DNA from: Flavicella marina
GTDB lineage: Bacteria > Bacteroidota > Bacteroidia > Flavobacteriales > Flavobacteriaceae
Assembly (NCBI RefSeq): GCF_009193215.1
Contig: NZ_VYVA01000001.1
Coordinates: 1-64,000 of the forward strand
Direction of reading: 5' to 3'
DNA length: 64,000 bases
Shown here: piece by piece, positions 36,930 through 60,835 of the stretch
Layout: each line of letters opens with the position of its first letter
Position numbering within the stretch: the stretch's first letter is position 1
Translations under genes and position numbers: made by a program
Notes under the pieces: generated by a model
What the model saw: the letters and a program-made list of their open reading frames with translations, nothing else
Told to the model about the DNA's origin: nothing
The model's database searches: none

Positions 36930-38501
36930 ATGTTTTTACGACCAATACTATCTTGTTTACTCTTATTGATTTTATTAAGTTGCAAAACAAAGCAACCATC
37001 AACAAATGTAACACATAATAAAAAACCACAGTTATTAGTTTTTTCTAAAACAAATAGTTTTAGACATACTTCTATACCAGATGGAATCGCAGCTTTCAAA
37101 CAATTGGGTCTCGAGAATAATTGGGATATTAAATTCTCTGAAGATTCTTTGATATTCAACCAAAAAGAACTTTCAAAAACACAACTAGTTGTATTTCTAA
37201 ATACCACAGGTGACATATTAGGAAATATACAAGAAACAGCTTTCGAAACTTACATCAACAATGGTGGTGCTTTTTTAGGAATTCATGCTGCAACTGACAC
37301 TGAACACGATTGGGATTTTTACAAACATATGATCTGTGCACAATTTAAATCGCACCCAAAACAACAAACAGCAACCCTAGAAAAACAATCTTCTTGTAAG
37401 CATCCTGCTACTGCTCATTTAAATACATCTTTTCAGAAGTATGACGAATGGTATAACTTTAAAGAACCTGTAGCAAAACAAGCAGTTGTGCTTTTAGAAC
37501 TTGATGAACAAAGCTACTCGGGAAAAAGAATGCACACACAGCATCCAATTGCCTGGTATCAGCACTACGAAGGTGGGAGAATTTTATACACCGGAATGGG
37601 GCACACGTCTGCTGCATATTCTGATCTAGATTTTCTTACTTTTTTAAAAGAAGGGATACATTGGTGCTTAGGAAATAAAGAAGTAACTATTCCAGAACAA
37701 GGACAAAGTTTATTAGACAAGGAATTATCTCTTTGGGATGTTTGGATGGGTGGAGTCCATAGTTCCGTTGACATAGATTTCGAAACATCAGACAATGTAA
37801 AAACGGGCAAACCTTTAGGCCTCAATAACGATCCGAAAAATGTTTTTGAAATAATTGAACAAGATGGTAGTCCGGTACTACATATTACAGGAGAGATTTT
37901 CGGAGGTTTGACAAGTAAAAATGAATACCAAAATTATCATTTCGAAACTGAGTTTAAATGGGGAGATAAAAAATGGGAACCTCGACTAAAAAGCAAACGA
38001 GATAGCGGCATACTATACCATGCTAAAGGCAAACATGGTACCTTTTGGAATGTTTGGATGTCTAGTTTAGAGTTTCAAGTTCAGGAAGGAGACTGTGGAG
38101 ATTTTATTGCTTTAGGCGATGTATATGGCGATGTACCTGCTACGAGAAAAACTAGAGACAATGGAAGTGTCTATTTTACATACGACCCTTTAGGAGAAAA
38201 CATCCCTTTAAAGTGGGGAAAAGGTTTTGAGTCAGGTCAAGCTAGCAAATCTACCCTGTATGAAAAAGCACATGGTGAATGGAATACATTGGAGATTTAC
38301 ACAATCAACAATGAAAGTATACATTTGGTAAATGGTCATGTTGTAAACAGAGTAAAAAATGCTCGTTATGATATTGCAAACAAAACCATACCTATTTCAA
38401 AAGGAAAAATTCAAATCCAATCGGAAGCTGCAGAAATATTCTATAAAAACATGCGCATCACTCCTATTCAAAAATTTCCATCTAAATATAAAAACCAGTA
38501 A
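36930..38501 (+). CDS. ThuA-like domain fused to DUF1080 domain, lipoprotein
   Basis: 523 residues starting at MFLRPILSCLLLLILLSC, a lipoprotein signal with Cys18; the frame opens at 36885 but would overlap GH3. Residues about 34-245 form a ThuA-like, glutamine-amidotransferase-fold domain (FSKTNSFRHTSIPDGI, LGIHAATDTEHDW, HPIAWYQHYEGGRILYTGMGHT). Residues about 265-523 are DUF1080, a concanavalin-like fold that some databases name 3-keto-disaccharide hydrolase. Families with either domain are linked to 3-keto-sugar chemistry, but neither is enough to assign a reaction. It is tail-to-tail with the next gene, with one base between the stops. Confidence 0.75.
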   Translation: MFLRPILSCLLLLILLSCKTKQPSTNVTHNKKPQLLVFSKTNSFRHTSIPDGIAAFKQLGLENNWDIKFSEDSLIFNQKELSKTQLVVFLNTTGDILGNIQETAFETYINNGGAFLGIHAATDTEHDWDFYKHMICAQFKSHPKQQTATLEKQSSCKHPATAHLNTSFQKYDEWYNFKEPVAKQAVVLLELDEQSYSGKRMHTQHPIAWYQHYEGGRILYTGMGHTSAAYSDLDFLTFLKEGIHWCLGNKEVTIPEQGQSLLDKELSLWDVWMGGVHSSVDIDFETSDNVKTGKPLGLNNDPKNVFEIIEQDGSPVLHITGEIFGGLTSKNEYQNYHFETEFKWGDKKWEPRLKSKRDSGILYHAKGKHGTFWNVWMSSLEFQVQEGDCGDFIALGDVYGDVPATRKTRDNGSVYFTYDPLGENIPLKWGKGFESGQASKSTLYEKAHGEWNTLEIYTINNESIHLVNGHVVNRVKNARYDIANKTIPISKGKIQIQSEAAEIFYKNMRITPIQKFPSKYKNQ

Positions 38502-38502
38502 A

Positions 38503-40110
38503 CTAAAAAGAATTGATATATTCAGTAAGATTGTCGGTTCTTTCTAATCCGATTTTCTTTCGTAATCTATAACGAGAAGTATGAATACTTTCGACTGAAA
38601 TTCCTAACAACGGTGCCATTTCTTTACTTGAGAAATTCAAACGAATCAATGCACATATTTTTAAATCTGCCGATTTTAGATTTGGGTGCTTTGCCTTTAA
38701 GTTTTCATAAAAACTTTGATTTATTGAAGTAAACCTAGCCTCAAATTCCTTCCAGTTACTTGTTGAATTTCCTTGAATGGTTTTTACCATTCTGCTTATC
38801 GTTTTCACATCAACCGAATCTTTCTGCTGTGACAATTTATTATTTAAGTTCGTCAAAAATTCTTCTTTTTCTATCAAACGTAAAGCCGAACTGGTGAGTT
38901 CTTTGTTTTTCATTTCTAAAATTTCTTCTTGACGTTTGATCTCAGCATCTTGACGCTCTTTGATCATTTGTTTTTCTGCACGGTGTTTTTGACGAAGGTT
39001 TCGAATAAAGAAAAAACTAAATATTGCCAACAATACAATAATCGCAATCAAAAACATATATTTCAAATACCAAATGTATTCTTCCTGCTCTAAAAATTTC
39101 AAACGCTGTTCGTTTTCTTGATCTTCTAATTTTTCTTTTGTAAGCCTATAATTATCCTTGATGTCAAATAATGGTAAATTCTTTTCGCTTTTAATTCCGA
39201 ATACCTGATCATTCAAAGATTTTTCCTTTAACAGATACTCATAAGCTTTCTCATAAGAATTCGTAGAGGCATATAGTTCCTGAAGCGCTTTGTATGCCTT
39301 TATTCTATAATTCGAATGGCTAGAATATTTTTCTGATGTTTCAAGTGATTTCAAATAGAAAGCTTCTGCTTTTTTTGAGTTTTTAACAATTTTATGAATA
39401 TCTCCCATCATGTAATAAATCAACACCAAATAAGAACCATCATTTTCATAAAAATATTCTTCAGCATCCTTCAATCGATCTAATCCTTCAGAAATATCAC
39501 CTCTCATAGCTAACAAATAACCTGCTTCAGCTTCTAAATAATAATTCTTAGATTTCAACATGATATTATTCTTAGCCGCCATACTACTGTCTAGGTATTT
39601 TTGAGCCATTTCATATTCTCCTCTCACTCTGTAAAAACTAGTCAATGCAAAATAGTCACTCAACATATATACTTCAGTCAGAATAACTCTCTTTCTAAAC
39701 ATGCTTTTATTTAATGACAAGGATTTATTCAAGTACTTAATAGCCTCATCATCTCTTTCATAAAAACTATACAACCAACCAAGTCCTTTATAGATTCTTC
39801 CTACTCGCGTAGTTTCTTTTCCATCTTCTAACAAAAGTCCTCTCCAGAAGTTATCATAGGCCTGACTGTAATCTACATGATGGGAATGAATATCAGCAAC
39901 CTCAATTAATCCCTCTACTGCACGGGCGGTATCTTTGACTTTCAAACTGAGCTCTATCGACTGATTATACAAATCAATAGACTTCTTTGAATCTATAAAA
40001 GTTAGTTTACGCGCTTTCAAAAACAAAGAGTCTTGCTTGCTAATATTTTGTGATTGTCCTAGCGTCGAACTAAATAAAAAAACGATAAATAATCTAGTAT
40101 AAAATTTCAT
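38503..40110 (-). CDS. Membrane-spanning TPR regulator with C-terminal LuxR-type HTH
   Basis: 535 residues. A signal or N-terminal anchor comes first, then about 300 residues of TPR helices (YSQAYDNFWRGL, GRIYKGLGWLYSFY, KAEAFYLKSLETS). A transmembrane helix lies near 350-370 (YMFLIAIIVLLAIFSFFFI), followed by a coiled coil and a C-terminal HTH: LKICALIRLNFSSKEMAPLL, then GISVESIHTSRYRLRKKIGL. This architecture is common in Bacteroidota. I infer that the periplasmic TPR part senses a ligand or partner and the HTH controls PUL genes. It lies between the two modules and is divergent from the 139-residue secreted protein. Confidence 0.8.
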   Translation of the reverse strand: MKFYTRLFIVFLFSSTLGQSQNISKQDSLFLKARKLTFIDSKKSIDLYNQSIELSLKVKDTARAVEGLIEVADIHSHHVDYSQAYDNFWRGLLLEDGKETTRVGRIYKGLGWLYSFYERDDEAIKYLNKSLSLNKSMFRKRVILTEVYMLSDYFALTSFYRVRGEYEMAQKYLDSSMAAKNNIMLKSKNYYLEAEAGYLLAMRGDISEGLDRLKDAEEYFYENDGSYLVLIYYMMGDIHKIVKNSKKAEAFYLKSLETSEKYSSHSNYRIKAYKALQELYASTNSYEKAYEYLLKEKSLNDQVFGIKSEKNLPLFDIKDNYRLTKEKLEDQENEQRLKFLEQEEYIWYLKYMFLIAIIVLLAIFSFFFIRNLRQKHRAEKQMIKERQDAEIKRQEEILEMKNKELTSSALRLIEKEEFLTNLNNKLSQQKDSVDVKTISRMVKTIQGNSTSNWKEFEARFTSINQSFYENLKAKHPNLKSADLKICALIRLNFSSKEMAPLLGISVESIHTSRYRLRKKIGLERTDNLTEYINSF

Positions 40111-40469
40111 ATGATGGTTGGTTCAGAGGTAATATAGACCAAATTGTAATTCTAATAAAACATGGTTTGAGTTTTACTATAGAAACGATGTCTATTTTCA
40201 AAGTAAAAAAATATAAATATTTCATCAATAAAAAAAATGTAAAAAAAACAAAACATCATAAAATTATTTACCCTCTTATAAACAAAGCGTCTAGAGAATT
40301 CATGTTGATATTTTGTCTATATAAATAGCTCAAAAAACAGAATTCAAAAATTCGTGTCAAGGATTTGTCTACTCGTAATTTTTCGTAAAAAACAGCATAA
40401 CTAGTATCTTTAAATTAAAACAAAATTGACTGGTAAAAAGTCAAATTTCAGAACACTACACTAAAAAAA
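40111..40469. promoter_or_regulatory. Divergent control region with clustered GTCTA pentamers
   Basis: 359 nt between the TPR-HTH regulator and the 139-residue secreted protein. GTCTA or its complement occurs at 40135, 40190, 40289, 40315 and 40368; the last three start 26 and 53 bp apart, and two are in TTTTGTCTA or TTTGTCTA. By base composition I would expect fewer than one. This could be the regulator's own control site. Confidence 0.4.
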
Positions 40470-40889
40470 ATGAATAAGAAAAATATCACAATACCGCTTA
40501 TCGCAATAGGATTATCATTACATGCCTATTCTCAAAAAATTTCTTGGAAAAACAAGATTGAAGAGTTCCACATAGATGAGACTGTTGAGTTAGATCTGCA
40601 GTATGACACGCGGCCTTTAAGCTTCTTTTATATTGATGCGAAATTACTAGAAATAGACAAAGAGGGAAATGTGATCAATACCTATGACAACTCTAAACCT
40701 ATTTTAAAACTAAATAAAGACTTATATTCTGGTAGCATTAATTTTCAGTACCAAATAAAAGCAAATACACCTATAAAACAAAAACTACCTGAAGGGCATT
40801 TTTATAAGTTAACTACTTTTATGATTTTGAACAATGACAGTGAGTTTGAATACAAAAGTGATGATGCTGTTGTGAAAATTCTATATTAA
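40470..40889 (+). CDS. Small secreted protein, homologous to the one at 48294; unknown function
   Basis: 139 residues with a signal peptide (cleavage near AYSQ, residue 22). The mature part aligns with the 218-residue protein at 48294: SWKNKIEEFHIDETVELDLQYD matches TWNNKDTNVSPGEVIGLNITYD, and GSINFQYQI...LPEGHFYKLTTF matches GTIDVNFTV...LTAGNFYLLRIY. Unlike that protein it lacks a C-terminal sorting domain, so it may stay periplasmic. The pattern is beta-sandwich-like. I know no named family for it. It is divergent from the PUL regulator and may serve in sensing or glycan binding. Confidence 0.7.
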   Translation: MNKKNITIPLIAIGLSLHAYSQKISWKNKIEEFHIDETVELDLQYDTRPLSFFYIDAKLLEIDKEGNVINTYDNSKPILKLNKDLYSGSINFQYQIKANTPIKQKLPEGHFYKLTTFMILNNDSEFEYKSDDAVVKILY

Positions 40890-41274
40890 TCTGATATCAC
40901 ATAAAACCTAACTACTCACGAATCAATACTATTTGAGCAAATGTAATTATAAAAAACTGCTATTCCCGTATAGTATTTCTACATTATTCTGACTCCCTCT
41001 GATCTTCATCACGATAGATATACAGCTTTATATCTTCTCTTTCTGATTAACGACATTTAATAATTGTACTATGTTATAAATCAATACTACTATAATTATT
41101 GGTTAGCCGCTATAAATGATAGTACCTTTTTTACACGTACGTAATCTATTTATTTCTATATACTAGACACATTCTATCTCATTTTTCATAGGTATTCTAC
41201 CTATAATAATAGAAGCATATGCATAAGGTCTGATTAAACTATCTCTAAACTACAATATCTCATTAACATAAAAA
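40890..41274. other. Gene-free AT-rich stretch
   Basis: I see no gene, clear repeat or promoter of good quality here. It separates the 139-residue protein from the tandem terminators of the second SusCD operon. Confidence 0.5.
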
Positions 41275-41346
41275 GTCTGAGCAATAAAAACCGCTCAGAC
41301 CACAATAAAAAACTGCCTGATTTTGTATTACTACAAAACCAGACAG
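41275..41346 (-). terminator. Two tandem terminators of the second SusCD operon
   Basis: Reading leftward, the first hairpin (41346 to 41313) has about 15 paired bases including two G-U pairs and is followed by TTTTTT. The second (41300 to 41275, GTCTGAGC/GCTCAGAC) is followed by TTTTTATG. Both lie within 95 nt of the lipoprotein stop. Confidence 0.85.
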
Positions 41347-41367
41347 CCTAACCAAAAACCAACTTTT

Positions 41368-42936
41368 CTATGGTCTTAAAGGTGCTTTGGACACACTTAT
41401 ATTATCCATATAAAATTTGAATTCATTCGGATTTCCAGCATTAGCCCCTCTTATCATAAATGATATTGATGCAGCGTTATCAAAGGTTGCATTTGTAGCG
41501 CTATACACCCATTCACCTGTTTGGAACTCAGGAGTGAATAAAGGATTAGACACAACTCCCCAATCAGTACCAGGATTCCAATAGAAACGCACATCTGGTT
41601 GAGTCGCCAATGCAGGTATAGATGCTTCATCCACATAAATCCACACTCCTATCTCGTAATTTACATTTGCTTCTACATCAAAACGTAAGAAATCTGAATT
41701 ATCATCATTTTTATTTCCCATAATCATACCTCCATCAGCATCTATAGTGATATGGCCACTTGTTGAGCCATCTTGAGCTTGAGCATTAGATAAATTAAAA
41801 GTATATTTATCCCATGGTGCACCCCACCATAGATATAACCAATTATCATTCGTTCCATTTTCAAAACTATAATCGAAATCAGAATCAATTAAAATATTTT
41901 CTTTCTCATATACCAAAGCTCTATCCACAATACTTTCAACTTTTACAAAATCTGTAGATTGTAACTCTCCTTGTATATATGAAATGGTTACATTGTCATT
42001 GCTATACACACTTTCAGATGCAAGATTTAACAAAATGATATTTGCCTCATCCGGGTTTATAACAGCAGATTCTATTGTCGGATTGATAGTATTACCACCG
42101 TTTTGAATAACCACATTAAAATCATCTTTGTTTAAAGTATTCACATCAATCTCACGACTAAACTCTAAAGCAACTCCATTTTCTTGTTGGTATACTTTAT
42201 CCAACAACACAGGTTCCGTAGAAGGAATAATCGACAAGAAGTCTTTTACATAAATCGTATCTCCACCGAACGGACGTTCTCTTCTTGCGATAAATTGCAC
42301 ATCATACACTCCTAATTTTTTGTATTTCACATCCACCTCTGTATTCTCTTCAAAAACAGCTGGATCTCCTCCTTCAAATTGCCAATTAAAAATTTGAGGC
42401 TCACCTTCCATTTGGTATGAATAGCGAATGGTACTACCAGCAGATACTTCATTTTTGATGTCATCTGCAACTGTCAACTCTCTTACTATATTACCATCAG
42501 CGTCTAATACATTTGCAACAATGTTTCCTGAAACAAAAGGTAAAACTTTTACTACAATTGTAGTATCTAACACACTCCCTTTCAACACCGTTCCATCATA
42601 TGCATCTTTATAAAACTCTTGGTGTAACTTAACGTTATGCTCACCAACTACTTTAAACTGAGTTTTAACTTTTGACAAAGTAGAAACTGTATCATTTGGA
42701 GTGTCTAAAATATCTGCAACTCCATTTGGAAAAGTCCATTTTCTACTTACAACACCCGCTGACACGTCACCGAAAGATAATATTCCGTTTACATTTACCG
42801 TATTTTCAAAATCCATTTGCGAAGTCACAATCACTCTATGACTTGGCACTGTTAAATTTACATCTTCTTCATCTTTACACGCAGTAAAAACTACTGCAAA
42901 AGCAAGAAATAAACTATATATATATTTATAATTCAT
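41368..42936 (-). CDS. Surface glycan-binding lipoprotein with PKD-like and CBM-like domains, module B
   Basis: 522 residues with lipobox VVFTAC (Cys20). Two PKD-like stretches are visible (SAGVVSRKWTFPNG near 60-130, and SAGSTIRYSYQ...FNWQFEGGDPAVFEENTEVDVKYKKLGVYDVQF near 165-220). A SwmB-like Ig segment follows at about 245-340. The last 165 residues (LIDSDFDYSFENGTNDNWLYLWWG to YMDNISVSK) look like a CBM4/9 jelly roll. It occupies the SusE/F position, 10 nt after SusD, and probably binds the module B polysaccharide. Its end resembles the module A lipoprotein only in domain type. Confidence 0.75.
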   Translation of the reverse strand: MNYKYIYSLFLAFAVVFTACKDEEDVNLTVPSHRVIVTSQMDFENTVNVNGILSFGDVSAGVVSRKWTFPNGVADILDTPNDTVSTLSKVKTQFKVVGEHNVKLHQEFYKDAYDGTVLKGSVLDTTIVVKVLPFVSGNIVANVLDADGNIVRELTVADDIKNEVSAGSTIRYSYQMEGEPQIFNWQFEGGDPAVFEENTEVDVKYKKLGVYDVQFIARRERPFGGDTIYVKDFLSIIPSTEPVLLDKVYQQENGVALEFSREIDVNTLNKDDFNVVIQNGGNTINPTIESAVINPDEANIILLNLASESVYSNDNVTISYIQGELQSTDFVKVESIVDRALVYEKENILIDSDFDYSFENGTNDNWLYLWWGAPWDKYTFNLSNAQAQDGSTSGHITIDADGGMIMGNKNDDNSDFLRFDVEANVNYEIGVWIYVDEASIPALATQPDVRFYWNPGTDWGVVSNPLFTPEFQTGEWVYSATNATFDNAASISFMIRGANAGNPNEFKFYMDNISVSKAPLRP

Positions 42937-42946
42937 AATTTAAGTT

Positions 42947-44644
42947 TTATAGTTCTTCGTTAGTTTGAACTTCACCAGTAGGAATTGGGAAGTAATTATG
43001 TTGAGCTGGATCATAATTCTGCTCACTTAAAAAGAAATCTGGTCTGATTCTTTCTGCAATATACAACGGAGGTGTATCAAAAATTGTAGCCTTATTTGCT
43101 TCTCTCCATACTTCATCAGCTCTAAGTTCTGAATACACTTCAGCCACAATTCCCCAACGTACTAAATCTTTCCATCTATGTCCTTCGAAACACAACTCCA
43201 GTGGTCTTTCAACCCTTTGAATATGTTTTAATACCGTTGCTGCACTTGCAGAAACCAAAGGTTGTGAGCCATGTACTTGAATACTTACGTGTAATTGAGG
43301 GAATTGACCTGAATTTTCATCCATATATTGTTGTAATGTTTTGACCCCTGCACGAGCTCTTATCATATCTATGTATGTAATTGCAGTTGCAAAATCTCCA
43401 GAATCATTAAGAACCGCCTCTGCATACATCAATAGAACATCTGCATAACGAATATGTCTAAAGTTGATTCCAGAACGACTATTTCCATCTTCTGCCTCTA
43501 AATGATACCAATTCGTATGCTTTTTCAAGTAAGCACTCTGTCCGAATCCCCATCCTTTTGCTTCATCAGAATCACGACCATAATACTCATCTTCAAAATT
43601 TGAAGGAGCAATCGAAGCAGTCATTCTTCGAGAATGAATATTACCATCATTAATTGGGTTTGTAGGATCAACTTCATCATACACAAACATTTCATGTAAA
43701 TAGTAAGAGGTTAAGACCGTATTATACCCTCCATAGTTCAACTGTCCAAGCCCACGTGCTAAAGCAGAAGCTTCTGCACCTGTTTCATTCGGGTTGTCAT
43801 CAACAATAGACCCATTAACTCCAGGGTTCAACTCACTATTAAAAGTAACTTCTAAAATTGATTCTGAATTGTACTCATTTGTATGTGTAAAATTATCTGA
43901 AACATCTGCGACAAGACTATATATATTAGAATCTATAACAGCTTTGAATTGTGCTGCGGCATTGCTCCATTCTTCATTATACAAATAAACTTTCCCCAAC
44001 AAACTCTGAGCAGTTCCTTTTGTTACGCGCCCTTTTCCTTCTGACCAAGACAATGGCAAGTTTTGCGCTGCAAACTCTAAATCTGGTTTGATTACCTGAT
44101 TTGTAACTTCTTCCAAACTAGATAATGGTTTACTAAAATCTTCAGCAGATTTAGCAACTTCTGTATGTATTACAGCTTGTCCATATGAATGTACTAATTG
44201 AAAATAATAAAATGCTCTCAAACACTTAGCTTGGGCTTCTATTTGAGCTTTTGTTACAACATTGATATCTGCAGATTGGATATTTTCAATAACCTGATTC
44301 GCTCTAAAAATCCCAATATACAATTCATTCCATCTGTCAACTACATAATAAGTATTGTCATTATATGTTAAGTTTCTAAATGCAGCCGGTCTATACCAAG
44401 ATTCGGTACCTCCCAAATCACCTAATACCATTTCATGCTGTACCAACGCTCCACTTACACTTTCAAATTGTAGCGCTCCATAAACCGTTGTTAACGCGCT
44501 ATTGAATTGTCCTTCTGTTTCCCAAAAAGTATCTGTTGTAATTGCATTCGGGTTCACTTGTGTTAAAAAATCACCTTCATCACAACCACTTAATGCTAAG
44601 ACACTTAAAGAAAGTACTATATATTTTTTTATAATTTTCATCAT
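42947..44644 (-). CDS. SusD-like lipoprotein, module B
   Basis: 565 residues from ATG 44644 (MMKIIKKYIVLSLSVLALSGC); an earlier TTG at 44659 is a poorer start. Lipobox ALSGC. SusD-like N-terminal part: FLTQVNPNAITTDTFWETEGQFNSALTTVYGAL. C-terminal RagB/SusD part: RHIRYADVLLMYAEAVLNDSGD, YIDMIRARAGV, VERPLELCFEGHRWKDLVRWG and YFPIPTGEVQTNEEL. It is about 80 residues shorter than the module A SusD. It lies 18 nt after susC. Confidence 0.95.
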   Translation of the reverse strand: MMKIIKKYIVLSLSVLALSGCDEGDFLTQVNPNAITTDTFWETEGQFNSALTTVYGALQFESVSGALVQHEMVLGDLGGTESWYRPAAFRNLTYNDNTYYVVDRWNELYIGIFRANQVIENIQSADINVVTKAQIEAQAKCLRAFYYFQLVHSYGQAVIHTEVAKSAEDFSKPLSSLEEVTNQVIKPDLEFAAQNLPLSWSEGKGRVTKGTAQSLLGKVYLYNEEWSNAAAQFKAVIDSNIYSLVADVSDNFTHTNEYNSESILEVTFNSELNPGVNGSIVDDNPNETGAEASALARGLGQLNYGGYNTVLTSYYLHEMFVYDEVDPTNPINDGNIHSRRMTASIAPSNFEDEYYGRDSDEAKGWGFGQSAYLKKHTNWYHLEAEDGNSRSGINFRHIRYADVLLMYAEAVLNDSGDFATAITYIDMIRARAGVKTLQQYMDENSGQFPQLHVSIQVHGSQPLVSASAATVLKHIQRVERPLELCFEGHRWKDLVRWGIVAEVYSELRADEVWREANKATIFDTPPLYIAERIRPDFFLSEQNYDPAQHNYFPIPTGEVQTNEEL

Positions 44645-44662
44645 CTTTAAATTTTTCAAGAA

Positions 44663-47600
44663 TTAAAATCCTAATTGAACACCAAGCATGAATCTTCTTG
44701 ATACAGGATAATTTCCTCTATCAACTCCTCTAGTAAAGATTCCATCTCCTCCAACTTCAGGATCATATCCTTTGTAATTTGTAACTGTCAATGGATTTAA
44801 AGAGGTCACATAAACTCTTAATTTATCGATCCCTGCTCTTTCTTTCATTTTAGGTACAGTGTACCCAATTGTCGCATTTCTTAATCTGAAATATGTACCA
44901 TCTTCTAAGAACAAATCTGATCGAGCTCTTACGTTATTATGGTACGCATTTTGTCTCGCTGTAGCAATATCTGAATCAGCATTCTGAGGAGACCACATAT
45001 GATAAATGTCTGTGTGACGTGCATTTGCATATGCAAACATTTTCGCTCCATTATAGATTTTCGCACCATGTGAGTAATAAGATTGTACGGTTAAGTCAAA
45101 TCCTTTGTATGCCAAATTAAAAGTCAAACCTGCTTCAAATTTTGCTTGTCCTGATCCAGAATACACGCGATCATTATCATCAATTTGATTGTTTCCATCT
45201 ATATCTTTGTACATCATATCTCCTAACTGAGCACTTCCGTCAATTGCTTTATATGCATCAAGCTGTTCTTGAGTTTTGATAATACCATCATGTTGCACCA
45301 AGAAAAAAGCTCCAGCTTCATACCCTTCTGCCAAGAAAGTTGTATAATCTACATTAGTCCCCATGGATGTAACCGGTCTACCATTACCATACCCTCTAGA
45401 AACTCCATCAAGGTTTGTAACCTCATTTTTGTTTTGAGTAAAAGTTCCGATGATTCCATATTTCAAACCATAACTCGTTTCGTCGTTGTAGTTAACAGCC
45501 AATTCGATTCCTTTATTATACATATTACCAGCATTCACTGTAACTACATCATATACCCCACTTGCTCTCGGATGGTAAGTCCCTGTAGATGGTGAAATAC
45601 GTTTTTCCAACAACATATCTTCTTTGTCATTATAGTAGTAATCAGCAGTAATATTTAATTTGTTATTAAACAATCCTAAATCAACTCCAATATTCCTAGA
45701 GATTGTGGTTTCCCATTTCAAGTTACTATCAACATATCTACGTTGAACAGTACCATATTCAATTTCTTCAGAAGCACCAAACGGATAATTTATTCCTGCT
45801 TCAATAATAGGTGTTGTTGAATACGGTTTGACCGTTTGGTTACCAACACCTGCATAACTTGCTCTTAACTTCAAACTGTTGACTACATTAGATTTGAAAA
45901 ATTCTTCGTTATGAATATTCCATCCTGCAGAAACTCCAGGAAATGTCCCATAGCGGTTTTCTTCTGAGAAATTTGAAGAACCATCTCTTCTAATACTTGC
46001 AGAGAATAAATATTTACCATCGTAGTTATACAATACTCTAAAAAGTTTCCCCGATAAAGTTGTGGTTCTATCCAGACTGTTCGGTTTGATACCTTCACTA
46101 GATGAAGTAAATGTTCTCAAATCATTACTCGTTGTTTCACTAAAAATTGCACCAACTCCAAGTTCTCTATATTTATATTCTTCATAAGATATCACACCTA
46201 AGAATTGCAAATTGTTTTTACCAAAACTTGTCTTATAATTGAAAATATTCTCAATAGTCTGTCTATTCGACCAAATATAATCTTCTTCTAATTTTGCGTT
46301 CAACCTTGATGCACCTGCATTTAACTCTCCATCATTGCTATATGCTAAATATTGAGGCTGATAGAAGGTTCTTCTATTCTCCCAAGAGTTCGATCCTAAA
46401 TTGATTTTATAGGTAAATCCTTTAAACAATTCGTATTCAGCATTAAATGCAAAATTCAAAGATTTAGAAACTCGTTTATCAGAATTACCTAGTTGACTAG
46501 ACAAATAACTGTATTGAATTTCATTATCTGGCGGCAAAACAACTCCATTATCTCCATTGGACTCTAATGAATTCAAAGGAGCTCTCCAGGGTCTTTGAAC
46601 AATTGCCTGTTCGTATAAGGCCCATGGTTCTTGTGTTCTATTTTCTGTCGTAAACCCAACAGTAGTAAACACCTTTAATTTTCCTTTTTTAAATTCTCCT
46701 GTCAACCTATTTGCCAACCTATCAAATCCTGAATTTATAAGCACTCCTTCTTGTTTGAAATAGTTTGTGTTTAAATTTAAAGTTAGGTTTTTTGTACCCC
46801 CTGAAATCTGTAAATTATAATTACTAATCTCAGCATTATTATTTTGTACATCTCCAACAAAATCTGTATCATAATCCAAAGCATTTGGAGTAATTATGAA
46901 TGTTGTCGGAGTTCTACCCAATGCTGCCAAAGTAACATCTTCAATATACATCTGTTGATCTGTATTCATCAAAGGAGTACCTGAAGTAATATTTTGTATA
47001 CCCGTATAAGTATTGAAGTTAATTTTCATTTTTCCTTCTTCACCTCGTTTGGTAGTAATCAAGATAACCCCATTAGAACCTCTTGTCCCATAAATTGCAG
47101 AAGAAGCACCATCCTTTAAAATATCAATTGATTGAATCTGATCAGGAGAAATATTTGGATTCCCTTCATAAGGAACTCCATCTACTACATATAATGGGCC
47201 TAATCCATCTGCATTCAACGATCCTAATCCACGGATCTGAACATTTGCAGCATCACCCGGACGTCCACTTGTTTGTTGTACATTCACACCAGCAACCTGT
47301 CCTTGCAATGCAACACCTATATCTGCTACAGGGGCAACATCAATTACATCAGAAGAAATTTTCACCACAGCACCTGTTACTTCTTTTTTCTTCTGAGTAC
47401 CATACCCAATAACAACAACTTCTTCCAAAGCAGAAACTTCTGGCGTTAAAATTACCTCGTAGCTAGCTGAGTTCGATACGACAAGTTCACTTGTTTTATA
47501 ACCAACATAGGTATATACAATAATATCATCTGGACTAGCACTTATTTCGTACACCCCATCAAAGTCGGTTACAGTACCATTACTCGTACCTTTAATAAGT

Positions 47601-47746
47601 ACACTTACACCAGGAAGAGGACCATCAGCATCTGAGACCTTTCCTTTAATTGCGCTTTTTTGTGCTTGGATAAACCCAACATTCAATAGCAACAAGGCTA
47701 TGAGAAAATGTTTTTGCTTCCAATTTGCACGTAAATTGAATTTCAT
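44663..47746 (-). CDS. SusC-like TonB-dependent transporter, module B
   Basis: 1027 residues from MKFNLRANWKQ at 47746; the frame opens at 47773 with a short atypical extension. Signal peptide to about 29, carboxypeptidase-regulatory-like domain (GKVSDADGPLPGVSVLIKG), then VVIGYGTQKKKEVTGAVVK and a plug with LYVVDGVPYEGNPNIS. The barrel ends YPVSRRFMLGVQLGF. The KKKEVTGAVVK segment is identical in both SusC proteins, suggesting they are paralogs. On the minus strand CATATTTG (47773-47780) lies 26 nt upstream of the ATG and is the likely -7 region. Confidence 0.96.
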   Translation of the reverse strand: MKFNLRANWKQKHFLIALLLLNVGFIQAQKSAIKGKVSDADGPLPGVSVLIKGTSNGTVTDFDGVYEISASPDDIIVYTYVGYKTSELVVSNSASYEVILTPEVSALEEVVVIGYGTQKKKEVTGAVVKISSDVIDVAPVADIGVALQGQVAGVNVQQTSGRPGDAANVQIRGLGSLNADGLGPLYVVDGVPYEGNPNISPDQIQSIDILKDGASSAIYGTRGSNGVILITTKRGEEGKMKINFNTYTGIQNITSGTPLMNTDQQMYIEDVTLAALGRTPTTFIITPNALDYDTDFVGDVQNNNAEISNYNLQISGGTKNLTLNLNTNYFKQEGVLINSGFDRLANRLTGEFKKGKLKVFTTVGFTTENRTQEPWALYEQAIVQRPWRAPLNSLESNGDNGVVLPPDNEIQYSYLSSQLGNSDKRVSKSLNFAFNAEYELFKGFTYKINLGSNSWENRRTFYQPQYLAYSNDGELNAGASRLNAKLEEDYIWSNRQTIENIFNYKTSFGKNNLQFLGVISYEEYKYRELGVGAIFSETTSNDLRTFTSSSEGIKPNSLDRTTTLSGKLFRVLYNYDGKYLFSASIRRDGSSNFSEENRYGTFPGVSAGWNIHNEEFFKSNVVNSLKLRASYAGVGNQTVKPYSTTPIIEAGINYPFGASEEIEYGTVQRRYVDSNLKWETTISRNIGVDLGLFNNKLNITADYYYNDKEDMLLEKRISPSTGTYHPRASGVYDVVTVNAGNMYNKGIELAVNYNDETSYGLKYGIIGTFTQNKNEVTNLDGVSRGYGNGRPVTSMGTNVDYTTFLAEGYEAGAFFLVQHDGIIKTQEQLDAYKAIDGSAQLGDMMYKDIDGNNQIDDNDRVYSGSGQAKFEAGLTFNLAYKGFDLTVQSYYSHGAKIYNGAKMFAYANARHTDIYHMWSPQNADSDIATARQNAYHNNVRARSDLFLEDGTYFRLRNATIGYTVPKMKERAGIDKLRVYVTSLNPLTVTNYKGYDPEVGGDGIFTRGVDRGNYPVSRRFMLGVQLGF

Positions 47747-48293
47747 ATTTTTTCGATTAAAGTTTAGTTCCACAAATATGATTATTATCGAAAGTCGATT
47801 TTCAGAACTTTACTAGACTTAAACCCTACGATATGGTTTTAATAGGTCAAAATCAATATGTTGTTCATAGACAAAAACTATACTCAAAAGTCAAGAACAC
47901 AAAATAAAACACTGAAAAACAACTAGTTGAGTTTTTTTTATTTAAAAAAAATATAGATGTTAAATAAAAAATTACTCAAAATGGCTATCAACTTATAAAA
48001 TCACCTAAGAAATAGCCTCCTCTAATTTATATGGTTTATTCAAATTTTCATATAAAATTGAAAGCTATTTTTGATTTCACCTCGACACAAAACAGCATGT
48101 TTTTAGAAAATATTATTAAAAACCCCTTGTAATTACTAGTAATACACAATCCAATGTCTAGTTTAATTCGATATAAAAAACAGCGATTTGCAACAAATCT
48201 TTAATTGATGTAAAGTTTTAATCAAGTGAAGAATCTCAAAAACAAAAAACACTCTAAATACATTTGAAGAACTAAACTTTTAAATATATTATC
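47747..48293. promoter_or_regulatory. Divergent promoter region of module B
   Basis: About 550 nt with no gene. Minus-strand CATATTTG (47773-47780) should serve susC. Plus-strand TACATTTG (48259-48266), a full -7 match, lies 27 nt before the 218-residue protein. TAGAC is at 47814 and 47878 (as TAGACAAAAA) and GTCTAG at 48156. The length leaves room for activators. Confidence 0.5.
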
Positions 48294-48950
48294 ATGAAAA
48301 AAATTACATTATTCAGTTTATTACTAGTAAGCACATTTTCTTTTGCGCAAACCGTTACTTGGAACAATAAAGACACCAACGTTAGCCCAGGTGAAGTAAT
48401 CGGATTGAACATCACCTATGATGCTGGTTCTGGAAACACGATCAACTATATGCACATAGTTCTAACTGAAATGACTGCTGGATGGGGGAATGTTCAAAAC
48501 TACAATGCAACTCAAGTTTTTGCAAATTTAGGTGACCCTAAAAATGATTCTGGTACAATTGATGTAAATTTCACAGTTGACCCAACTGCGCCAGAAACAA
48601 CTGCACTGACAGCAGGAAACTTCTATTTATTAAGAATCTATATCGAAGTTACTAAACCTGACACATCGAAAGGATATGCAAATGGTAATACAGTAGTAAC
48701 TCTTGAAAACGCAACAGCATCGATTAATAACATTGATGGTTCATCACCTATTAGTATCTACCCAAACCCAGTAAGCGACATTTTATACATTGATTCTGAT
48801 GTAACTATTGACACTTATAACGTGTACTCTGTTTCTGGTCAATCAGTAAAATCTCAAAAAGCTACAGGAAGTATCGATGTTTCAGATTTACAAAATGGTT
48901 TATATATTTTAAACACTGGAAACAGATCAACAAAATTCATCAAACAATAA
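48294..48950 (+). CDS. Small secreted protein with T9SS sorting domain; unknown function
   Basis: 218 residues: signal peptide (cleavage near SFAQ, residue 19), a novel domain at about 20-145, and a type A T9SS sorting domain at about 153-218 (ISIYPNPVSDILYIDS to GLYILNTGNRSTKFIKQ). It should therefore be secreted or fixed on the cell surface. The novel domain is homologous to the 139-residue protein at 40470 and looks all-beta. It has no visible catalytic motif. As the first gene divergent from susC in module B, it may be a glycan-binding accessory protein. A strong hairpin follows. Confidence 0.75.
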   Translation: MKKITLFSLLLVSTFSFAQTVTWNNKDTNVSPGEVIGLNITYDAGSGNTINYMHIVLTEMTAGWGNVQNYNATQVFANLGDPKNDSGTIDVNFTVDPTAPETTALTAGNFYLLRIYIEVTKPDTSKGYANGNTVVTLENATASINNIDGSSPISIYPNPVSDILYIDSDVTIDTYNVYSVSGQSVKSQKATGSIDVSDLQNGLYILNTGNRSTKFIKQ

Positions 48951-48963
48951 CTATTTAATACTT

Positions 48964-48990
48964 ACACCAACAAATAATATTTGTTGGTGT
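48964..48990 (+). terminator. 12-bp hairpin between the secreted protein and the GH86 gene set
   Basis: ACACCAACAAAT (48964-48975) and ATTTGTTGGTGT (48979-48990) pair perfectly around AAT, followed by TTCTTTC. It starts 13 nt past the preceding stop and ends 11 nt before the next ATG. The T-run is weak, so it may cause only partial termination or stabilise the upstream mRNA. Confidence 0.6.
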
Positions 48991-49001
48991 TTCTTTCAAA
49001 A

Positions 49002-49673
49002 ATGAAAAAACTAGCTCTAATCATATTACTAATAATCGGTTTTTCTTGTGCAAAGGAAGAATCAAATTTAAACAGTCCTCCTGTGTCACCGACAAAGGTA
49101 AGTCCTGTAAACAATTTGTCTTGTACAGAATTGACATTGGATTTAACATGGAACACAACATCAGACCCTGATGGTAACGCGCTCTCCTATATTGTTGAAC
49201 TAAGTAATGATGCTGGTTTTACAGAAAAATTATTGAGTGAAACTACAAATAACACAAACTACAGGATAAATCTAGAAAAAGACAATACATATTACTGGAG
49301 AGTGTTAGCAAAAGATATTCACGGTGCAACAAGTACAGACGAAGACATCTGGTCTTTTAATACTGAAAACACTCAAATTAGCAACCATTTACCATACCAA
49401 CCATCAAATCCGGTTCCCGCTAACAATAGCTCTATCAACACTGGTGCAGTAAAAATGGAATGGACTTGTACAGATATTGATAACGACCCCTTACTCTTTG
49501 ATATATATCTAGGAGAAACAAACAACAACTTAACCCTTATTAGTGAAAATAACGAGAACTTTTTTTACAATACAACCCTTTCCAGTGGTAAAACTTATTA
49601 TTGGAGAGTAGATGCCAAAGATAACTCTGGAGGTATTACAGAAGGTGTTGTTTGGGAGATACAGGTTCAATAA
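49002..49673 (+). CDS. Lipoprotein with two fibronectin-III-like domains
   Basis: 223 residues from MKKLALIILLIIGFSC (lipobox Cys16). Two tandem domains repeat the same plan: SPVNNLSCTELTLDLTWNTT...DPDGNALSYIVELS...NTYYWRVLAKDIHGATS (about 33-120) and NPVPANNSSINTGAVKMEWTCTDIDNDPLLFDIYLGE...KTYYWRVDAKDNSGGIT (about 130-220). The YYWRV(L/D)AKD signature is typical of cell-surface FN3-like modules. It has no enzyme motif. It lies 15 nt before GH86 and may help position the enzyme or bind glycan. Confidence 0.75.
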   Translation: MKKLALIILLIIGFSCAKEESNLNSPPVSPTKVSPVNNLSCTELTLDLTWNTTSDPDGNALSYIVELSNDAGFTEKLLSETTNNTNYRINLEKDNTYYWRVLAKDIHGATSTDEDIWSFNTENTQISNHLPYQPSNPVPANNSSINTGAVKMEWTCTDIDNDPLLFDIYLGETNNNLTLISENNENFFYNTTLSSGKTYYWRVDAKDNSGGITEGVVWEIQVQ

Positions 49674-49688
49674 GTTAAACTTTAAGAA

Positions 49689-52310
49689 ATGAAAAAATTA
49701 TTCTATTTATATATAGTACTTTGTACCACTGCCCTATCTGCACAGGTAGACGTTGATATTAACTTTAACGTAAAGCATACCGTTGGTAATATTGATACTT
49801 TTGATCGAAGCAAATTTATTACCATCCATGCTAATCAAACTGAAACAGAATGGGATGGCGATAATTTCACAAATGACCTAAGAAACGATTTCCTAAATGG
49901 GCTAGATGTGTACCTTGGAAGAGATACCGGAGGAATTACATGGAACTTAAACAATATGGAAGAAGATCCAACAAGAGCGGGATATGCTGACCCAGCTAAG
50001 ATAACGACTAAAGGTACGAACAGCAGAAACAGTTTCGCTTCAAAAACAAATCTTCACCCCTATGAAAATAGAAAAAACCACGTAGTAGGTGCACAACTTC
50101 ATCCTTTTTGGACAGGAGAGAGTCAACGTGAAACTAAATTAGGATGGAAACTAGCTAACCCAACTGCTGTTGGAGAATACATGGGTAGGTATTTCAATGC
50201 TTTCCATGGTGGAAATGGTCAAAAGCAACCAGAATGGGTTGAAGTAATAAATGAACCTGCATACGAAGCTTTAGGTGGTAAAACAGATTATACAAATTCT
50301 TTACAAGAAATTGCAGAATTTCATGTTGAAGTAGCAGATGCCATTCGTGAACAAAATTCAAATTTAAAAATTGGTGGTTACACCGTTGCTTTTCCTGATT
50401 TTGAAACAGGAAATTTCCAAAGATGGACAAACAGAGATAAGTTATTTATTGATGTTGCAGGTGAGAAAATGGATTTCTGGGCCTGGCATTTATATGATTT
50501 CCCAGCATTTGGAGGTAAAGTTGATCTTCGTTCAGGTAGCAATCTAGAAGCGACTTTTGACATGAATGATCAATACAGCATGATGACATTAGGCACAAAA
50601 AAACCTTATGTAATTTCAGAATACGGAGCGCAAACACATGATTACAATAATGAAGGATGGAGTGCTTATCGTGATTGGTTATTCTTAAAAGCTCAAAATT
50701 CTATGATGTTATCATTTATGGAAAGACCCGATGACATCGCTATCGCTATACCTTTTACAATCGTGAAGGCTGAATGGGGATTCAATCATGATAAAAATAT
50801 TCCATATGGAGCTAGATTGATGCGAAAAACCAACGAACCTTCAAGCTATACGGGACAATGGATTTACACTGACCGTGTAAAGTTCTACCAACTTTGGAAA
50901 GACGTTAAAGGTACTAGAATTGATACAAAAGCTACTGATTTAGATATTCAAGTAGATGCCTATGTTGACGACAATAAAGCCTACTTAATTCTAAATAATT
51001 TGGAGTTTGAAGCAAAAGATATAGCATTACACTTGTTCGACGAAAACAATACTTCAATTACATCTGTTAAAATACAGCATTTAACACTAGACAATCAAAC
51101 ACCTGTGATTCAAGAATCAACACAAACGTCAGCTCCCGCCAATGTAGTTTTAGGTGCCGAGTCAACCATGATTATTGAATATACTTTTAACAACAATATT
51201 GTAATTGACGAAAGCAACAGTGAAAAAAAATATTTTGCAACCAGTTATTTAAAACCAATTTCAGCAAATACAGCGATTGATTTTGAAATAAACGGAATTA
51301 CAAAAAATACATATGGAGAAGCTGTTTTAAGAGTTGGTGTTGGTAGAGATCATGGTCAAAATCTGCATCCAACAATTTTTGTTAACAATACAGAAATCGA
51401 AGTACCTACAGATTACCGAGGATACAACCAAGCAGACAAAGCAAGATTTTTCGGTGTATTAGAAATACCTGTACCCTATGCTTTATTGGAAGAAAACAAC
51501 ACCGTGCAAATTTCGTTTCCAGATACAGGAGGTCATGTAAGTTCAGTTACAATGCAAGTATTTAATTTTTCTGCAAATATTAGAGAACGAAATCCAAATG
51601 ACTTCAATGCGGATAATTACCAAATAAAAACATTGGGTATTAGCTGTGTAGAAGAAAACAATGGAGTAATCGAAATAAACACCCAAAGTCCTAATAATTA
51701 TTCTGCAGAAATTAAGGGTACTACCTATGAAAGCACAAAAAGCTTTTCTCAAAGCATACTTTTTGAAGACCTTGCTGCTGACACTTATAGTATTAAAATT
51801 ACAATACCTGAACATCCAGACTATGAAGCGAATTTTAAAGTAACTATTGACGAGCCACAACTGTTAAAAGTGGCAACAAAACTGAATAACAAAAAAAATC
51901 AGATTACCTTAGACCTATCAGGTTCTGAAGAATATCAAATATCAATCAACAATCAAATAACAACAACTTCAGAATCAAAAATATCTTTTGAACTTACTGA
52001 AAATATCAACCAGATTGAGGTGAAAACAGATAAAGAATGCCAAGGAAACTTTAGTGAACTAGTCACGATTCAAAATCTATTTCGCATCTACCCTATTCCT
52101 GCAAAAGAAAGCATTTCTCTAGCATCTCCAACATCGTTTTCTGGAGCAACTGCATATATTTACAATAGCAACGGAAAATTAAACATCACTCACAAAGTTC
52201 AGAAAACTGAAGAACAAATTGACATTCATACATTGTCACCAGGGGTATATTTTATAAAAATATACAAATCAAATCAAGAATTAGGGTACAGCAAATTTAT
52301 CGTGATATAA
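49689..52310 (+). CDS. GH86 beta-agarase / beta-porphyranase with T9SS sorting domain
   Basis: Endo-acting enzyme on agar-type galactans. 873 residues: signal peptide (cleavage near ALSAQ, residue 19), GH86 barrel at about 20-420, beta-sandwich domains at about 420-610, a further beta region, and a C-terminal T9SS sorting domain (FRIYPIPAKESISL to GYSKFIVI). The probable acid/base is Glu189 in VEVINEPAYEA and the nucleophile Glu311 in YVISEYGAQTHDY. GDxNF, AQLHPFW and FWAWHLYDFPAFGG also fit GH86. The family holds both agarases and porphyranases, and subsite residues for sulfate cannot be judged here. This is the best substrate marker in the window. Confidence 0.88.
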   Translation: MKKLFYLYIVLCTTALSAQVDVDINFNVKHTVGNIDTFDRSKFITIHANQTETEWDGDNFTNDLRNDFLNGLDVYLGRDTGGITWNLNNMEEDPTRAGYADPAKITTKGTNSRNSFASKTNLHPYENRKNHVVGAQLHPFWTGESQRETKLGWKLANPTAVGEYMGRYFNAFHGGNGQKQPEWVEVINEPAYEALGGKTDYTNSLQEIAEFHVEVADAIREQNSNLKIGGYTVAFPDFETGNFQRWTNRDKLFIDVAGEKMDFWAWHLYDFPAFGGKVDLRSGSNLEATFDMNDQYSMMTLGTKKPYVISEYGAQTHDYNNEGWSAYRDWLFLKAQNSMMLSFMERPDDIAIAIPFTIVKAEWGFNHDKNIPYGARLMRKTNEPSSYTGQWIYTDRVKFYQLWKDVKGTRIDTKATDLDIQVDAYVDDNKAYLILNNLEFEAKDIALHLFDENNTSITSVKIQHLTLDNQTPVIQESTQTSAPANVVLGAESTMIIEYTFNNNIVIDESNSEKKYFATSYLKPISANTAIDFEINGITKNTYGEAVLRVGVGRDHGQNLHPTIFVNNTEIEVPTDYRGYNQADKARFFGVLEIPVPYALLEENNTVQISFPDTGGHVSSVTMQVFNFSANIRERNPNDFNADNYQIKTLGISCVEENNGVIEINTQSPNNYSAEIKGTTYESTKSFSQSILFEDLAADTYSIKITIPEHPDYEANFKVTIDEPQLLKVATKLNNKKNQITLDLSGSEEYQISINNQITTTSESKISFELTENINQIEVKTDKECQGNFSELVTIQNLFRIYPIPAKESISLASPTSFSGATAYIYNSNGKLNITHKVQKTEEQIDIHTLSPGVYFIKIYKSNQELGYSKFIVI

Positions 52311-52476
52311 CCTAAGTAACGCGAAAATCAAATAGTTTCTAGTAATCTGACAGTCTTTGTTCAGATTTTGTCTAGTATATAATCCTACAGATATCATCAA
52401 TAATGTAGAATTTAGCTATTACCAAATCAAACCATATTTGCTTGCAAAAATTGCCTAAGAACTAAACTTTAAACTC
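52311..52476 (+). promoter_or_regulatory. Promoter region of the GH2 gene
   Basis: CATATTTG at 52433-52440, identical to the octamer before the module B susC, lies 37 nt before the GH2 start. TTTTGTCTAG at 52366-52375 is exactly repeated in reverse at 55959-55968, and ACAGATAT (52387-52394) repeats the half-site before the module A susC. GH2 thus seems to have its own promoter. Confidence 0.45.
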
Positions 52477-56087: not shown

Positions 56088-57104
56088 ATGATTGCAACAG
56101 AATACAAAGGAAACAAAACCTTTTCAGTAGTAGAAAAAAAGGTTGAAACTCCAAAACAAGGAGAAGTTAGAATCAAGGTAGCATATTCAGGAGTTTGTGG
56201 TACAGATGTACACATTTACCATGGAATGATGGATGGTCGTGTTGATATGCCTCAGACAATTGGACACGAAATGTCAGGAACTATTGATGCTGTTGGAGAA
56301 GGTGTATCTGATTATACTATTGGAGACAAAGTGGTAGTTCGTCCGTTAGATGATACCAAAGCAAAACCCTCAGACAAAGGATTCAATCATATATGTGAAG
56401 AGTTAAACTTTATTGGAATCGACAGTCCAGGGTCAATGCAACAGTATTGGAATGTACCAGCTTTCACACTACACAAATTAAAAGAAAATACAGATCTAAA
56501 ATTAGCAGCTCTGATTGAACCATTATCAGTTGCAACTCATGACGTTCGTTTGAGTGGTTTGGTGGCTGGAGAAACTGCTTTTGTATTAGGTGGTGGACCT
56601 ATTGGACTTCTAGTAGCCATGGTTGCTAAAGAAGTAGGTGCTCAGGTAATTATCTCAGAAGTAAACCCAACTCGTATCGCAAAAGCTAAAGAATTAGGTT
56701 TTGACGCAGTGAGTCCTTTAGAAGTTGATTTAGTTGAATATGTTCACGGAAAAACCGATGGTCGTAAAGCCGATGTGGTTTTTGAAGTTGCAGGTGTTCA
56801 ACCCGCTTTGGATGTTATGACTGAAGTAGCAGGAATTAGAGGACGCATCGTAATGGTTGCCATTCACGGGGTGAAAAAAGAAATCGATTTGTTTAAATTT
56901 TTCTGGAAAGAATTAAAGTTAATTGGAGCTCGTGTGTATGAAAGAGAAGATTACGAAAAATCGATCGCATTAATCACAGCAAATGAGTTGCCATTTGAAG
57001 AAATGATTACTGATGTTCAGCCTTTATCAAACATCCAACAAGTTTTTGAAAATATAGATAAAAACCCTGATGGTTTAAAGGTACTAATGGATTGTCAACT
57101 ATAA
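56088..57104 (+). CDS. Zinc-type medium-chain alcohol dehydrogenase lacking the structural-zinc cysteines
   Basis: 338 residues. Catalytic-zinc ligands are visible: Cys37 (GVCGTDVH), His60 and Glu61 (IGHEMSG), Glu144 (ALIEPLSVA). The NAD(P) glycine motif is VLGGGPIG near 167-173. The lobe that normally binds a structural zinc with four Cys reads DDTKAKPSDKGFNHIC and keeps only Cys103. Closest family types are L-threonine, L-galactonate and 2-keto-3-deoxy-sugar-acid dehydrogenases. In this operon I infer oxidation of 2-keto-3-deoxy-L-galactonate at C5; L-galactonate to D-tagaturonate is an alternative. First gene of the operon, 30 nt before the SDR. Confidence 0.8.
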   Translation: MIATEYKGNKTFSVVEKKVETPKQGEVRIKVAYSGVCGTDVHIYHGMMDGRVDMPQTIGHEMSGTIDAVGEGVSDYTIGDKVVVRPLDDTKAKPSDKGFNHICEELNFIGIDSPGSMQQYWNVPAFTLHKLKENTDLKLAALIEPLSVATHDVRLSGLVAGETAFVLGGGPIGLLVAMVAKEVGAQVIISEVNPTRIAKAKELGFDAVSPLEVDLVEYVHGKTDGRKADVVFEVAGVQPALDVMTEVAGIRGRIVMVAIHGVKKEIDLFKFFWKELKLIGARVYEREDYEKSIALITANELPFEEMITDVQPLSNIQQVFENIDKNPDGLKVLMDCQL

Positions 57105-57134
57105 CAAAGAAGTAAAACTTTATAAAAATAAACA

Positions 57135-57905: not shown

Positions 57906-57919
57906 TTCAAAAATATTCA

Positions 57920-59347: not shown

Positions 59348-59356
59348 TATACTATT

Positions 59357-60811: not shown

Positions 60812-60835
60812 TCCTATTCTTAAAAAAATATTATT

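Follow-up and report, generated by a model that had tools for sequence, protein, structure and literature searches.

Stand-alone relatives of an agarose-binding module in an agar utilization locus of Flavicella marina

Two small secreted proteins with a shared domain

We analysed the first 64,000 nucleotides of contig NZ_VYVA01000001.1 from Flavicella marina (assembly GCF_009193215.1); we will call this whole stretch the window. The window includes a polysaccharide utilization locus (PUL) directed at agar, and within it are genes for two small proteins, which we call CBMa and CBMb. Both have a predicted signal peptide followed by a domain like that of an agarose-binding carbohydrate-binding module (CBM) whose structure is PDB entry 8WAC. 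CBMb also has a sorting tail of the type IX secretion system (T9SS).

40470-40889, + strand: CBMa (alias P0001), 139 amino acids; signal peptide ~1-21, 8WAC-type domain ~22-138
48294-48950, + strand: CBMb (alias P0002), 218 amino acids; signal peptide ~1-18, 8WAC-type domain ~19-140, T9SS type A tail 155-218

An earlier reading of the window, made from the sequence only, had taken the proteins at 40470 and 48294 to be homologous, and this was borne out. BLASTP gave an alignment of 127 residues with 24% identity (E 2e-8), and each retrieved the other in a search of their own genome (E 1.4e-4 and 7.4e-5). The alignment of the mature domains scored 73; across 5000 shuffles, scores averaged 26.5 and never exceeded 58. 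The motifs that were listed in the earlier reading are present in the two sequences, and the reading was also right that only one of the proteins has a T9SS sorting domain. The tail of CBMb matches PF18962 (1.2e-11, Pfam) and TIGR04183 (1.5e-10, NCBIfam), while CBMa has no match to any Pfam or NCBIfam model, and hence no Por_Secre_tail. Similarly, the two genes are placed as that reading had it, with CBMa divergent from the regulator at 38503-40110, which contains TPR repeats, and CBMb divergent from susC.

The signal peptides of both proteins, as well as the absence of a lipobox from CBMa, were read from the sequence. Neither translation contains a cysteine, so the lipobox of SusE/SusF-type proteins is missing from CBMa and from CBMb. 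Pfam and NCBIfam gave no catalytic domain in either protein. A classical CBM is part of the same polypeptide as a catalytic module and is contiguous with it. CBMa and CBMb lack this contiguity and would be stand-alone module proteins that act like a CBM. We found no match to CBMb in the plasmids that we searched and no match to CBMa in the phages that we searched. A scan of contigs with CBMb gave three loci, all of which matched through the T9SS tail part only.

Both proteins are related to the agarose-binding module 8WAC

Using phmmer, we found that PDB chain 8wac_A ("Agarase") matches CBMb over residues 18-139 (E 2.9e-30) and CBMa over residues 21-128 (E 1.1e-13). Across the domain, CBMb is ~48-51% identical to 8WAC and CBMa is ~27-31% identical. 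The entry was released on 2024-09-11 under the title "Crystal structure of a novel agarose-binding carbohydrate binding module of an agarase". We also built AlphaFold2 models from the two window sequences alone (two-row alignments), which had pLDDT of 69.6 for CBMa and 54.1 for CBMb. The first-ranked Foldseek match of either model was 8wac, with E 8.9e-9 and TM 0.62/0.71 for CBMa, and E 1.5e-8 and TM 0.35/0.55 for the poor model of CBMb. Given the domain homology, CBMa and CBMb almost certainly belong to the 8WAC-type family, and by homology to it they would bind agarose.

The source of 8WAC shows what differs here. As displayed by HMMER, 117 of the 127 residues of 8wac correspond without change to residues 18-134 of an 840-residue protein from glycoside hydrolase (GH) family 86 (L038:7405-9927, in the related genome G383). 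In other words, 8WAC comes from the N-terminus of a GH86 enzyme. In the window, each copy of the module is encoded by a separate gene, with a T9SS tail in CBMb and without one in CBMa.

The sequence-only reading knew of no family for the two proteins. This holds for Pfam and NCBIfam, neither of which has a model for the shared domain, but not for the PDB, where 8WAC is a clear homolog. Nor is the fold an unknown one, as had been claimed, since the profile and structure-prediction searches both point to 8WAC. In the table in its appendix, a review lists CBM101 as agarose-binding with a beta-sandwich fold (PMC11122601). The ligand agrees with that of 8WAC and the fold class agrees with the domain, and we infer that 8WAC belongs to CBM101. 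We also considered a relation to arrestins: CBMb has an Arrestin_C match below the cut-off (E 0.0084), and there were arrestin-like matches from Foldseek. We take these as a general likeness among beta-sandwiches.

The surrounding genes target agar

The genes around CBMa and CBMb are as follows, where AHG is 3,6-anhydro-L-galactose.

38503-40110, - strand: TPR regulator (Pfam TPR), divergent from CBMa; a signal peptide, one membrane segment, and a LuxR-like C-terminal helix-turn-helix were read from the sequence
41368-42936, - strand: probable surface glycan-binding lipoprotein with a PKD domain (PF00801; Cys then acidic residues, by reading), downstream of susD
42947-44659, - strand: SusD-like protein (below-cut-off matches to the NCBIfam NanU and SusD models; position after susC)
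44663-47773, - strand: SusC-like TonB-dependent transporter (TIGR04056, 769.7 bits), divergent from CBMb
48999-49673, + strand: lipoprotein with two Ig-like stretches (PF25788, 2.5e-8), between CBMb and GH86
49689-52310, + strand: GH86 beta-agarase without the module (8h97 "Beta-agarase", 1058 bits; PF18206, PF18040, PF18962)
52477-55017, + strand: GH2 enzyme (5t9a, E 4.6e-297)
56088-61930, + strand: two dehydrogenases, a sulfatase, an AHG dehydrogenase, and an AHG cycloisomerase (6j75, 5xd7, PF00884)

This cluster is agar-directed because the AHG dehydrogenase, the cycloisomerase, and the gene set that accompanies them are present. The gene at 59357 matches 6j75 (E 1.3e-223), which is named as an AHG dehydrogenase in PMC10163077, and the gene at 60836 matches the AHG cycloisomerase 5xd7 (E 1e-188). 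According to the same paper, the agar PUL of Aquimarina ERC-38 has the same set of four enzymes as 56088-61930, a set to which the dehydrogenases at 56088 and 57135 conform. The GH2 of the Aquimarina PUL is likewise described there as nearest to 5T9A (PMC10163077).

The TPR regulator has a weak match to NCBIfam NF053779 (33 bits, with a cut-off of 940). No Rfam families were found in 38000-52500 at gathering thresholds. The Ig-like lipoprotein adjoins GH86 here, and homologs of it do so in the genomes G002, G334, and G169 (24-43% identity; L084:13060-13734, L085:3543-4253, and L090:8076-8786), and it is possible that it is a surface partner of GH86. The motif TTTCAGAACNNTAC occurs at 40446-40459 and 47800-47813, near the starts of CBMa and susC. 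With one mismatch allowed, it has three matches in the window (0.6 expected), a count that was reached in 3 of 100 shuffles, and the CBMa region of the same-genus genome G754 does not contain it. It was noticed post hoc and we did not use it.

The module is rare in the sampled genomes and is fused to GH86 in several relatives

We searched 397 genomes of the family for the module (E 1e-4) and found it in 10: the genome of the window, G383, G061, G084, G246, G134, G169, G326, G177, and G180. In five of these genomes, the module is N-terminal on GH86, in six proteins (one each from G383, G061, G246, and G134, and two from G084). In G754, the module is C-terminal on GH86, so six related genomes have a GH86 fusion in all. 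Of 11 GH86 proteins that we compared, seven were fused to the module.

In G169 and G326, the module stands alone with a C-terminal region that resembles the tail of CBMb, and for G326 the tail was confirmed by Pfam. The stand-alone protein from G326 (L041:9607-10305) is like CBMb in having a signal peptide, the module, and a T9SS tail, and the two are 35% identical over the full length. A GH16-like enzyme and AHG genes are encoded nearby. Unlike the genome of the window, G326 has no GH86 match at E 1e-20. G326 also encodes three other proteins in which the module, in one to three copies, follows the catalytic part (L044:357-2978, L043:3678-5480, and L045:4702-6237). Pfam identifies GH16 in two of them, and the third is related to those two via a relative of 402 amino acids. 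In these GH16-type proteins, the module copies precede a T9SS tail. The remaining two genomes, G177 and G180, have weak module matches only.

Genomes with the module tend to have GH86. A GH86 match (E 1e-20) was found in 9 of the 10 genomes with the module, versus 11 of the 387 others. If the five fusion genomes are excluded, the proportions are 4 of 5 versus 11 of 387. Beyond the family, our genome gave the sole match among 395 genomes of the order (E 1e-8), 295 of the class (E 1e-6), and 296 of the phylum (E 1e-6). The module is rare and is confined to the family in these samples, all of which lie within the phylum. Within our genus, two of six genomes have it (the other is G754), and within the genus of G383, four of seven genomes match, three of them weakly.

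The sequence-only reading had proposed that the two proteins are glycan-binding or sensing partners. Glycan binding is favored by the homology to 8WAC and by the presence of the module on GH86 and GH16-type enzymes; a sensing role is possible but unlikely.

Some more distant or unusual relatives turned up as well. A protein of 243 amino acids from G383 (L111:9317-10048; E 2.8e-9) is CBMb-like over its length and is encoded between rho and glutamate synthase genes. Proteins of ~1190 amino acids in which about four weak copies of the module occur in tandem (L046:7805-11362 in G383, L110:3232-6807 in G754, and G758:C1:390416-391828) form a remote branch of the family, in which the module sits on a different type of protein; the one from G383 also has a beta-helix. 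In G180, a GH86 gene is present as two adjacent open reading frames (L087:4089-6718).

CBMb corresponds to part of a fused agarase in a sister genome

Where the window has CBMb, divergent from susC, G754 has a single gene that encodes GH86, the module, and the T9SS tail (L108:4992-7478). Residues 21-217 of CBMb are colinear with residues 638-827 of this enzyme (39% identity, E 3e-39), and the gene is followed by the same GH2, IclR, and AHG genes. So the order in G754 is susC, then (divergently) GH86-CBM-T9SS, and then GH2, whereas in the window susC is followed by CBM-T9SS, the Ig-like lipoprotein, GH86, and then GH2.

The GH86 of the window also has a different C-terminus. Beyond the T9SS tail, its C-terminal region (residues 633-873) matches only the GH86 proteins of G002 and G334, among the 11 compared (E 3e-52 and 2e-48). 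This region (51585-52310 of the window) precedes the T9SS tail, is without a Pfam match, and occupies the position of the module in the sister enzyme. Given the fused gene in G754, as well as the G002/G334-type C-terminus and the Ig-like lipoprotein in the window, we conclude that the locus was reshuffled and that the module here is separate. We attribute the detachment to domain shuffling at one locus. We observe the two arrangements, and the change could have run either way. As to its direction, CBMb aligns with the stand-alone protein of G326 from the signal peptide to the end. In a tree, the module of CBMb was nearest to that of G383 (moderate support, 87/93), a grouping that was lost when more rows were added.

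We also searched nine genomes with the tail of CBMb and read the ranks by hand. The best foreign match was the tail of the module-GH86 protein of G383, which ranks first of the 45 tails there. Tails of module-bearing proteins also ranked high elsewhere: first and third of 50 in G084 (two genes), second of 50 in G246, second of 21 in G061, third of 37 in G134, and first of at least 100 in G326. A rough combination of these ranks gives p = 5e-5, or 2e-4 if G169 is counted as last. Probably the module and the tail travelled together.

CBMa is diverged, lysine-rich, and conserved

CBMa is a strongly diverged, untailed, lysine-rich paralog. Its ortholog in G754 (L109:1740-2159) also has 139 amino acids, is 59% identical, and has the same two neighbors, the PKD lipoprotein and the TPR regulator. 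Between the two, dN is 0.32 and dS is 2.3, for a ratio of ~0.14 in which dS is saturated. Of the seven gene pairs to which we applied NG86, five yielded a ratio; the other four were 0.167 for the surface glycan-binding protein, 0.067 for GH86, 0.055 for SusC, and 0.014 for AHG dehydrogenase. CBMa appears to be kept by selection.

The two CBMa domains have 15 lysines or arginines each, as compared to 1-6 in 13 other module domains (a comparison that covered one of the three L044 copies and none of the L046-L048 domains). To relate composition to location, we grouped proteins from the window. Proteins with a T9SS tail, of the SusC or SusD type, or with a cysteine followed by acidic residues were assigned to the outside. 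Lysine and arginine make up 12.8% of CBMa, 10.7-16.2% of ten putative periplasmic or membrane proteins, and 5.0-10.5% of nine putative surface or secreted proteins. Because it has no tail, no lipobox, and this composition, CBMa most likely resides in the periplasm as a soluble protein.

Proposed roles and alternatives

We propose that CBMa and CBMb are stand-alone 8WAC-type modules, with CBMb acting outside the cell and CBMa in the periplasm; we put the probability of this at roughly 0.7. CBMb would be exported via the T9SS to the cell surface or the medium, and there it would bind agar in trans for the neighboring, untethered GH86, as the fused module does in cis. It would thereby hold together the enzyme, the cell, or loosened agar. 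From its predicted location and its homology, we think that CBMb probably has this role. CBMa would stay in the periplasm and would bind imported neoagaro-oligosaccharides, or a charged relative of these, to retain them or pass them on. That CBMa is a periplasmic binder of agar fragments is about an even bet, based on location as predicted from sequence and composition and on binding as predicted from homology.

Several observations weigh against this proposal. Binding is predicted from homology, and the structure models are shallow, with the low pLDDT values and two-row alignments given above. Near its end, the CBMa domain lacks an Ala-Asn pair that is present in 9 of the 13 other domains, so CBMa may not bind agarose and its ligand may differ. 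The module is dispensable, as 4 of the 11 GH86 proteins (from G002, G334, G180, and G019) are not fused to it, and the search for the module gave no match in G002, G334, or G019. The sequence-only reading had named homologs without linkage to PULs as evidence that would count against it, and there are two such cases: the stand-alone modules of G169 (a good match) and G383 (L111, a weak one) lie outside any PUL that we saw. As for the tail, that of an unrelated protein in the same genome (C7:823256, E 9.6e-13) is closer to CBMb's than are any of the foreign tails except for G383's, and the tail of the stand-alone protein of G169 was not among the matches listed for CBMb's. The trees of the module are mostly unresolved. 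For CBMa, the dN/dS ratio is rough and is the second highest of the five pairs. The compositional gap between the groups is narrow (10.5% versus 10.7%), six cytoplasmic proteins of the window are at 9.0-11.7%, and the sorting into surface and periplasm follows general rules.

The alternative that fares best is compatible with our proposal. CBMb could act as a surface adhesin that anchors the cell on the alga, independently of the enzyme, and it does have a T9SS tail and no catalytic domain that we found. But CBMb lies within an agarase gene cluster, and its relatives bear the module on enzymes, so we consider this rather unlikely.

Two other alternatives are somewhat less likely. First, CBMa might be a periplasmic co-sensor that binds agar oligosaccharides and delivers these to the periplasmic TPR domain of the divergent regulator, which then switches on the PUL. 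CBMa adjoins this regulator divergently in both genomes where we found CBMa, the regulator combines TPR repeats with its apparent signal peptide and membrane segment, and CBMa is conserved and has a composition that fits the periplasm. But homologs of the regulator are divergent from CBM-GH86 genes in G383, G061, G084, and G246, so the site of CBMa is a usual one for the module, and in G002, from the same genus as the window, we found the regulator but no gene for the module. Second, CBMa and CBMb might bind another red-algal galactan (porphyran or carrageenan) instead of agarose. The window contains several sulfatases and a second susCD set (by reading; one sulfatase was identified by Pfam), and the lysine-rich CBMa would suit a sulfated ligand. 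But 8WAC is described as agarose-binding, and the local GH86 is nearest to beta-agarase 8h97, at 1058 bits, versus 245 bits for porphyranase 4aw7. We doubt this explanation about as much as the first.

A more elaborate history for CBMa seems even less probable to us: that it is a module that left the agarase, lost its export tail, and became a periplasmic oligosaccharide binder that works with the TPR regulator, so as to sense the product of its own enzyme. Least probable is that CBMa is a decaying or nearly neutral leftover of a CBM-GH86 gene that was once divergent from the regulator and lost its core and tail: it has the place and orientation of CBM-GH86 in four relatives, no tail, and a long branch, but tblastn found no convincing GH86 remnant after it (40880-41380, best E 1.4), the G754 ortholog is identical in length, and dN/dS is low even if dS is saturated. 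The two divergent promoter regions contain no convincing GH86 remnants either (tblastn).

Implications

The 8WAC-type module itself is known, having been in the PDB since 2024, and stand-alone CBMs are not new as a concept. Our search of the literature, which was thin on subscription journals and so is weak evidence, found no description of separate forms of this module in agar PULs. Because the domain has no Pfam or NCBIfam model, proteins of this kind are likely to be annotated as hypothetical, and an alignment of the module domains could seed a family model.

Our analysis suggests what two orphan proteins in an agar PUL are likely to do. With CBMb, what would be an agarose-binding module is encoded as a separate protein, and a sister genome has the fused form at the same locus. 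With CBMa, the module was apparently relocated to another compartment and kept under selection there. The pair of separate and fused forms makes it possible to test directly what is gained, or what it costs, when a binding module is tethered to an agarase.

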